A DNA stretch of 64,000 nt. It comes from Spirochaetales bacterium. Lineage in GTDB: Bacteria; Spirochaetota; Spirochaetia; Sphaerochaetales; Sphaerochaetaceae. The notes beneath the pieces were generated by a model. That model worked only from the letters and a program-made list of their open reading frames with translations, was not told where the DNA came from and ran no database searches. Numbering within the stretch: position 1 is the first letter of the stretch; every line of letters starts with the position of its first letter. The stretch lies in contig JAQYHB010000037.1 in the NCBI GenBank assembly GCA_028722305.1, positions 1 through 64,000 of the forward strand. Reading direction: 5' to 3'. Shown here one piece after another: positions 29,763-31,495 of the stretch. Made by a program: the position numbers and the translations under genes.

Positions 29763-30260
29763 TTACTCGCAGATCACCGCGTACAGGTTGATGCCGCTGC
29801 CCTTGGAGTACAGCAGATAGGTGCCATCGGCGGGGATGGTGCAACCAGCCTTGCCTGCATGCGCCTCATCATCCGGCGGCGCGGTGAAGACCGTCACCTC
29901 GGCCTTTGTCGCGGCATTGACCAAAGCCAACTGACGTGCGTCCGTCTTGCTGGAAGAGTTGAGGTAGACAACCAGGGTCTCCCCTTTCTTTCCATTGAAT
30001 GAAAGCGCACGATACGTCGCGTTTCCGGAACCACCGAGCTTGATGCGGGCATTGAAGACCTCGCCATCCGCCGCCTCGCGGCTGACGGGAACCGCCTCCA
30101 CGGTGACCGCTTTCTCCGCGGTCGCCAGCACCTTCACGTCATCATAGCTTTTGTTCGAAGTGATTTTGACCGGATCAAGATCATTCACATTGAGATAGGC
30201 TCCGGCGAACAAAGCCGTCGAGCAAGCCATCAGGCAGAGCAAAGAAACAAATCTCTTCAT
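29763..30260 (-). CDS. Small secreted beta-rich protein, partner of PL9 lyase
   Basis: A 165-residue protein with a signal peptide (MKRFVSLLCLMACSTALFAG). The mature part is Thr/Ser/Ala-rich and predicted all-beta, with NARIKLGGSGNATYRALSFNG and a C-terminal TYLLYSKGSGINLYAVICE. This resembles a small beta-sandwich module fused to some bacterial pectate lyases; I treat that as a likeness only. AAGGGG seven bases before ATG 30260 supports the start. It is the first gene of a two-gene operon with the lyase, so a substrate-binding or targeting role is plausible. Confidence 0.75.
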   Translation of the reverse strand: MKRFVSLLCLMACSTALFAGAYLNVNDLDPVKITSNKSYDDVKVLATAEKAVTVEAVPVSREAADGEVFNARIKLGGSGNATYRALSFNGKKGETLVVYLNSSSKTDARQLALVNAATKAEVTVFTAPPDDEAHAGKAGCTIPADGTYLLYSKGSGINLYAVICE

Positions 30261-30475
30261 GAGAAACCCCTTTTGTTTCAGTGTAAGTCTGTATTTCTGG
30301 AAATTTGATAGATGTTTTTGGATAAATACGATTGCGCGAACGCCATGAAGTCCCGCGACATGCTCTCCCAAACAGGATTGCATGTGCACCTCTGCGCCCC
30401 AAAACGCTGGCTCTCCCAGGTGCGGTCTTTCTGCGCCTGTTCCGGAGTGAGATGCCCTGTGCCTGGACATCGGGC

Positions 30476-30503
30476 TTGACGGATTCTGGTTTGATTGTAC
30501 TAT
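30476..30503 (+). promoter_or_regulatory. Sigma-70-type promoter of candidate small RNA
   Basis: TTGACG (30476-30481) and TACTAT (30498-30503) are 16 bases apart and lie directly before the structured element at 30510-30579. Confidence 0.6.
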
Positions 30504-30509
30504 TGATGA

Positions 30510-30579
30510 CGGATTCATCGCGGGATAGCAAGTCCCTAATGACTGTACTTAGGGCGGCCTTGGTCGATGAATCTTTTTT
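30510..30579 (+). ncRNA. Candidate structured small RNA of about 70 nt
   Basis: A promoter at 30476-30503 is followed by GATTCATCG (30512-30520), which pairs perfectly with CGATGAATC (30565-30573), and then by six T residues (30574-30579). An inner hairpin CCCTAA/TTAGGG (30534-30539 with 30549-30554) sits inside this long stem. Promoter, closed stem and U-tract together look like a short terminated transcript. No known RNA family is recognised, and no coding frame explains it. It lies in a decayed, gene-poor stretch. Confidence 0.55.
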
Positions 30580-30688
30580 GTGATACCAGCAACACTTCCT
30601 CAAGAAGGATTGGAAGAAAACTCCAGCCCAAAAGGTTTCTCAATCGTTCAAAAATACGTAATTCTGATATTGGGTGTTTGGAGGGAAA

Positions 30689-30817
30689 ATGGCTGTAAGC
30701 AGGAGATACAATGCAAAGACTCCTAGCGGGGAAAAATACTCCGAGATTTACTTTCTTGATGATACCATGTTTCCAGTAGACGAGCAGGTCGCGACCAGAT
30801 GTGTCATCAACGAGTAA
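30689..30817 (+). CDS. 42-residue small protein
   Basis: GGAGG four to five bases before ATG 30689 leads a 42-codon frame ending TAA 30817. The product begins MAVSRRYNAKTPSGEKYSE and is mostly polar, with a mid EIYFLDDTMF. The start resembles the N-terminus of some phage tail or baseplate-associated proteins, but that is too little to name it. It may be a truncated gene in the decayed stretch, or a real short peptide. It ends about 140 bases from the radical-SAM remnant on the other strand. Confidence 0.45.
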   Translation: MAVSRRYNAKTPSGEKYSEIYFLDDTMFPVDEQVATRCVINE

Positions 30818-30953: not shown

Positions 30954-31316
30954 TCAATATATAATACCCTTTTCGGAATCTTTATTTGGTTTAAAAATAC
31001 CAGTCTCATACTGACACAACATCCAAAGGTGGTCTTTCCGGTTAACGTACCTCACGCAATCCGGATCTTTCTCGTATTGCTGGAATTTCGCATCGCACCG
31101 GGCAAGCAGATTCCGGTATTTCGGATGGGGTGATGCCGGCCTGCGGAACCAGTCATGGGTTTTCTCCATCCCGTCAATGGAAAGCTGGTATTTGATACAG
31201 CCACAATCGGCAAGCCGTTCGCAGACCGTATCGTCAAGATGGAAGGGATTTCTCCAAGACAAGAAACGGAATCTGTGCGCATTTCCAAGGTGGAGGACGG
31301 CTGTGGACGCGATCAT
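30954..31316 (-). pseudogene. Remnant of a radical SAM peptide-maturase-like gene
   Basis: A 120-codon frame holds two family-like pieces joined without the middle. The first, LDDTVCERLADCGCIKYQLSIDG followed by MEKTHDWFRRP, is a typical radical-SAM segment (the 'QLSIDG..E..HDWFR' part of the barrel). The second, KFQQYEKDPDCVRYVNRKDHLWMLCQYETGIF, looks like a C-terminal tail. The CxxxCxxC cluster domain and SPASM region are missing and the N-terminal 20 residues are unrelated. I read it as a gene collapsed by internal deletion. Confidence 0.6.
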
Positions 31317-31495
31317 GAGGACAGTTACGCAGAGAATGCGCTGCTGCTACCGGAAGGCCCCTGCCTTTGCCATCACCTCCTGCCGTTGGCCGGATTGAAG
31401 TATCCCTTCAGCCAGCTCCGTGACGCATCGACTAGACCAACGGCAAGATTGTCGTCACCCTGGAGGATTGAAGGCGGCTCAGCCTCGCTGCAAGC

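Follow-up and report, generated by a model that had tools for sequence, protein, structure and literature searches.

A putative short terminated transcription unit in a strain-specific segment of a Spirochaetales genome

Terminators predicted in Borrelia burgdorferi average ~7 nt in the stem and 11 nt in the loop (PMC10319736). Here, we analyzed an element located within a 64,000-nucleotide stretch of contig JAQYHB010000037.1 from a Spirochaetales bacterium (the whole stretch is referred to as the window). This element resembles intrinsic (Rho-independent) terminators and terminated 5' leader RNAs in having a perfect stem followed by six Ts and a promoter candidate just upstream, and it shares with such leaders a downstream open reading frame (ORF) with a Shine-Dalgarno-like GGAGGG. 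However, it differs from both in its AT-rich stem and in a 44-nt interior that takes the place of a short loop, and it has neither a known switch or sensing domain nor a conserved family. Short intergenic bacterial small RNAs (sRNAs) provide a further comparison, as the element likewise has a predicted length of ~65-70 nt and its own candidate promoter and terminator; unlike these sRNAs, it lacks conservation and has a fold stability that is not above that of shuffled sequences. The features of the locus are as follows:

30333 to ~30950: segment absent from both Treponema ruminis RU1 and its near-identical MAG, with the element inside
30476-30503, + strand: sigma-70-like promoter candidate TTGACG-16-TACTAT (9/12), of a kind whose site count is near chance
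30510-30579, + strand: predicted transcript of ~70 nt, based on sequence and fold
30512-30573, + strand: 9-bp closing stem (arms 30512-30520 and 30565-30573) with a 44-nt interior
30534-30554, + strand: inner hairpin, CCCTAA (30534-30539) with TTAGGG (30549-30554)
30574-30579, + strand: terminator-like T6 tract directly 3' of the stem
30689-30817, + strand: 42-aa ORF (MAVSRRYNAK...), related to a phage gene of 57-63 aa but truncated, with GGAGGG just upstream of its start
30954-31316, - strand: decayed remnant of an ACGX-system radical SAM/SPASM gene (TIGR04340, matched in two pieces at E 5e-33)

The letters and coordinates given in the initial annotation for the promoter, the 9-bp stem, the inner hairpin, and TTTTTT were all correct on rechecking. 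TTGACG (30476-30481) and TACTAT (30498-30503) are separated by a 16-nt spacer, and 8 nt lie between the end of the promoter and the stem, in which GATTCATCG (30512-30520) is the exact reverse complement of CGATGAATC (30565-30573). Four of the nine pairs are G-C, making the stem AT-rich for a terminator. For the predicted transcript, the start was placed 7 nt past the -10 hexamer and the 3' end within the T-tract. Measured against the description of an intrinsic terminator as a G+C-rich stem with a loop of 3-8 followed by a T-tract, the element has the stem and the T6, but its loop is 44 nt and its stem is only 4/9 G-C. A short-loop terminator scan (loop 3-8) did not report the element because of this 44-nt loop. 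Two ORFs overlap the element, one of 83 aa (30332-30583, + strand) and one of 140 aa (30181-30603, - strand); neither had a Pfam or PHROG match, and a protein-coding reading of either is unsupported.

It had been proposed that the order of promoter, folded body, and terminator is hard to get by chance. The stem and T-tract agree with this claim. By figures that are post hoc, since the pattern was picked after being seen, a 9-bp stem with at least six Ts occurs once in the 64 kb, both strands included, and in none of 30 whole-window shuffles; with at least five Ts there are 2 cases in the window versus 0.1 expected; and when the local 977 bases were shuffled 4000 times, the stem with T5 appeared in 0.15% (P ~0.0015) and the stem with T5 plus a promoter within 30 nt upstream in 0/4000. 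In contrast, the promoter and the overall fold are ordinary. Promoter matches of 9/12 numbered 2 versus 1.7 expected in the 2.1-kb neighborhood and occur across the 64-kb window at 0.18 per kb per strand; a promoter of such quality, taken alone, is commonplace. RNAfold, suggested earlier as a check, did return the same nesting of stems (-22.3 kcal/mol), but with a stability not above that of dinucleotide shuffles (z = -1.17, n = 200; 23/200 were equally stable).

The description of the element as an orphan was borne out by searches with Rfam, DNA, and covariance models. The Rfam scan that had been proposed returned no credible match: among 4227 models, at gathering and permissive thresholds, no family was found, and the only match, to a CRISPR repeat, had an E of 5.8, far below threshold. 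DNA searches of its own 2.7-Mb genome, 40 relatives, and 395 genomes of the class recovered only the element itself, besides short fragments and the radical SAM stretch, and the element is single-copy in its genome. A single-sequence covariance model likewise found only itself in 119 genomes of the family, as it did under laxer filters in 36 close relatives. Two covariance matches were rejected as chance: one in G012 (18.7 bits) with six or seven model pairs broken and no T-tract, and one in G002 (15.9 bits) that is merely a 7-bp hairpin. Moreover, the element was unmatched by blastn against phages and plasmids, and an exact 21-mer of it was absent from viral contigs. The same 9-bp inverted repeat did occur in 13 viral contigs, where we consider it a chance palindrome, followed by a T-tract in 0/13. 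From the sequence, then, the element belongs to no recognised RNA family and would be, at best, a species-specific candidate small transcript or leader.

The window comes from a rumen-type treponeme, and we compared the surroundings of the element with those in T. ruminis RU1, the closest named relative found (91% identical at the DNA level across the left flank), and in the same-genus genome G002. The left neighbor of the element is a gene for a 165-aa secreted protein (29763-30260, - strand), which is 94% identical in G002, and no + strand gene that would need a terminator lies upstream. Homology to both G002 and T. ruminis ends at 30332, returns partly at ~30952, and is fully restored at 31310. 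Therefore, the segment from 30333 to ~30950, including the candidate, is strain-specific. At the corresponding place, G002 carries other DNA (L034 4540-5500), in which a reading frame inspected by eye has the look of what we take to be an Rpn-type nuclease/transposase gene. The presence of a different insert at the syntenic place raises the possibility that this junction is a recurrent insertion site.

The 42-aa ORF starts 110 bases downstream of the element. Along its entire length, it matched a 57-aa human-gut phage gene (60%, E 6e-9) that is located immediately after a gene for a head-maturation/minor-head protein. Relatives of the ORF are present in three viral contigs (55-62%), the complete ones being 57-63 aa long; the Treponema copy stops early. 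This small phage gene has the motifs YSEIYxxDD and ATRCVIRE, follows head genes in gut phages, and had no good PHROG family match.

In our preferred reading, to which we give somewhat less than an even chance, the element forms a short transcription unit with its own intrinsic terminator, inherited along with foreign DNA, whose product would be a free RNA or would lead into the phage-derived 42-aa ORF. Transcription would begin near 30510, run through a single long hairpin, and end at the T-tract (30574-30579), producing an RNA of ~65-70 nt, and read-through would yield a transcript reaching the ORF at 30689. The element would then be a terminated leader or a free by-product RNA that arrived with, or was left over from, foreign DNA. 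We favor this terminated unit because the stem with T6 is unique in 64 kb and rare among shuffles, the promoter is 8 nt away, no + strand gene lies upstream, a phage-type ORF (55-60% identical to phage genes) follows, and T. ruminis lacks the segment. The AT-rich stem, the 44-nt interior, the fold z of -1.17, and the lack of conservation argue against it. Because the ORF, which had been missed earlier, is 110 bases downstream, a leader or attenuator is at least as likely as an independent small RNA. When the region 30510-30700 was folded, the hairpin stayed intact and no mutually exclusive alternative stem was visible; thus, a riboswitch-like switch is not indicated. The hairpin was absent near the 57-aa gene family in the phages examined, which counts against the reading and leaves a phage source common to hairpin and ORF unsupported. 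We regard it as very improbable that the element is a phage-derived small RNA or attenuator that was carried with the small phage gene and is now domesticated in one Treponema lineage.

A substantial possibility is that the arrangement arose by chance in non-functional DNA, with a random inverted repeat falling beside a T-tract and a commonplace promoter-like match within a decaying, strain-specific patch. The number of promoter matches, the ordinary overall fold, the lack of a homologue by DNA or covariance model, the gene relics all around, and the post hoc choice of pattern are all as such an origin would have it; the rarity of the stem with its T-tract among shuffles is not. It is possible but unlikely that the element encodes a species-specific regulatory sRNA that is expressed by itself and acts in trans by pairing with target mRNAs. 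What speaks for a dedicated sRNA of this type is solely its layout, in which the promoter leads to a folded body and a U-tract with no other + strand gene upstream, whereas no relative was found in the 119 family genomes or, under laxer filters, the 36 close relatives, Rfam gave no match, and the thermodynamics are not unusual (z -1.17). Of the initial proposal of a structured small RNA, a short terminated unit remains plausible from the sequence, but the fold is no better than shuffles, and neither an Rfam family nor a homologue accompanies it. Compensating changes in the nine-base stem had been named as support, but the segment is missing in the closest relatives. Finally, an inverted repeat within a strain-variable segment could instead be part of a mobile element, such as a MITE-like terminal repeat or an integron attC-type site, and not an RNA. 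We consider this highly unlikely: the 2.7-Mb genome has only one copy, direct repeats were not seen on either side, and reading the sequence by eye revealed no attC-like GTTRRRY core box.

If expressed, the element would add another lineage-specific short transcript to the rumen-type treponemes, a group in which RNA biology has, in the literature searched, apparently received little study. As matters stand, its main lesson is that a promoter-hairpin-T pattern in raw sequence has to be backed by relatives or RNA data. The segment from 30333 to ~30950 and its right flank are, to judge from their remnants, a graveyard of decayed genes and phage pieces, and the intergenic patch that holds the element is an illustration of such a graveyard of acquired genes. 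The radical SAM relic has a counterpart of the same kind in G002, and the ACGX radical SAM gene is intact in G072 and in G051, where it lies beside a gene for an ACGX-repeat peptide. In G051, the intact radical SAM gene is followed by an oxidoreductase, whose end is similar by eye to TNGKIVVTLED (~31430-31470, + strand). What is left here and in T. ruminis of an ACGX-type RiPP cluster, namely the radical SAM/SPASM gene and possibly the oxidoreductase, is decaying.
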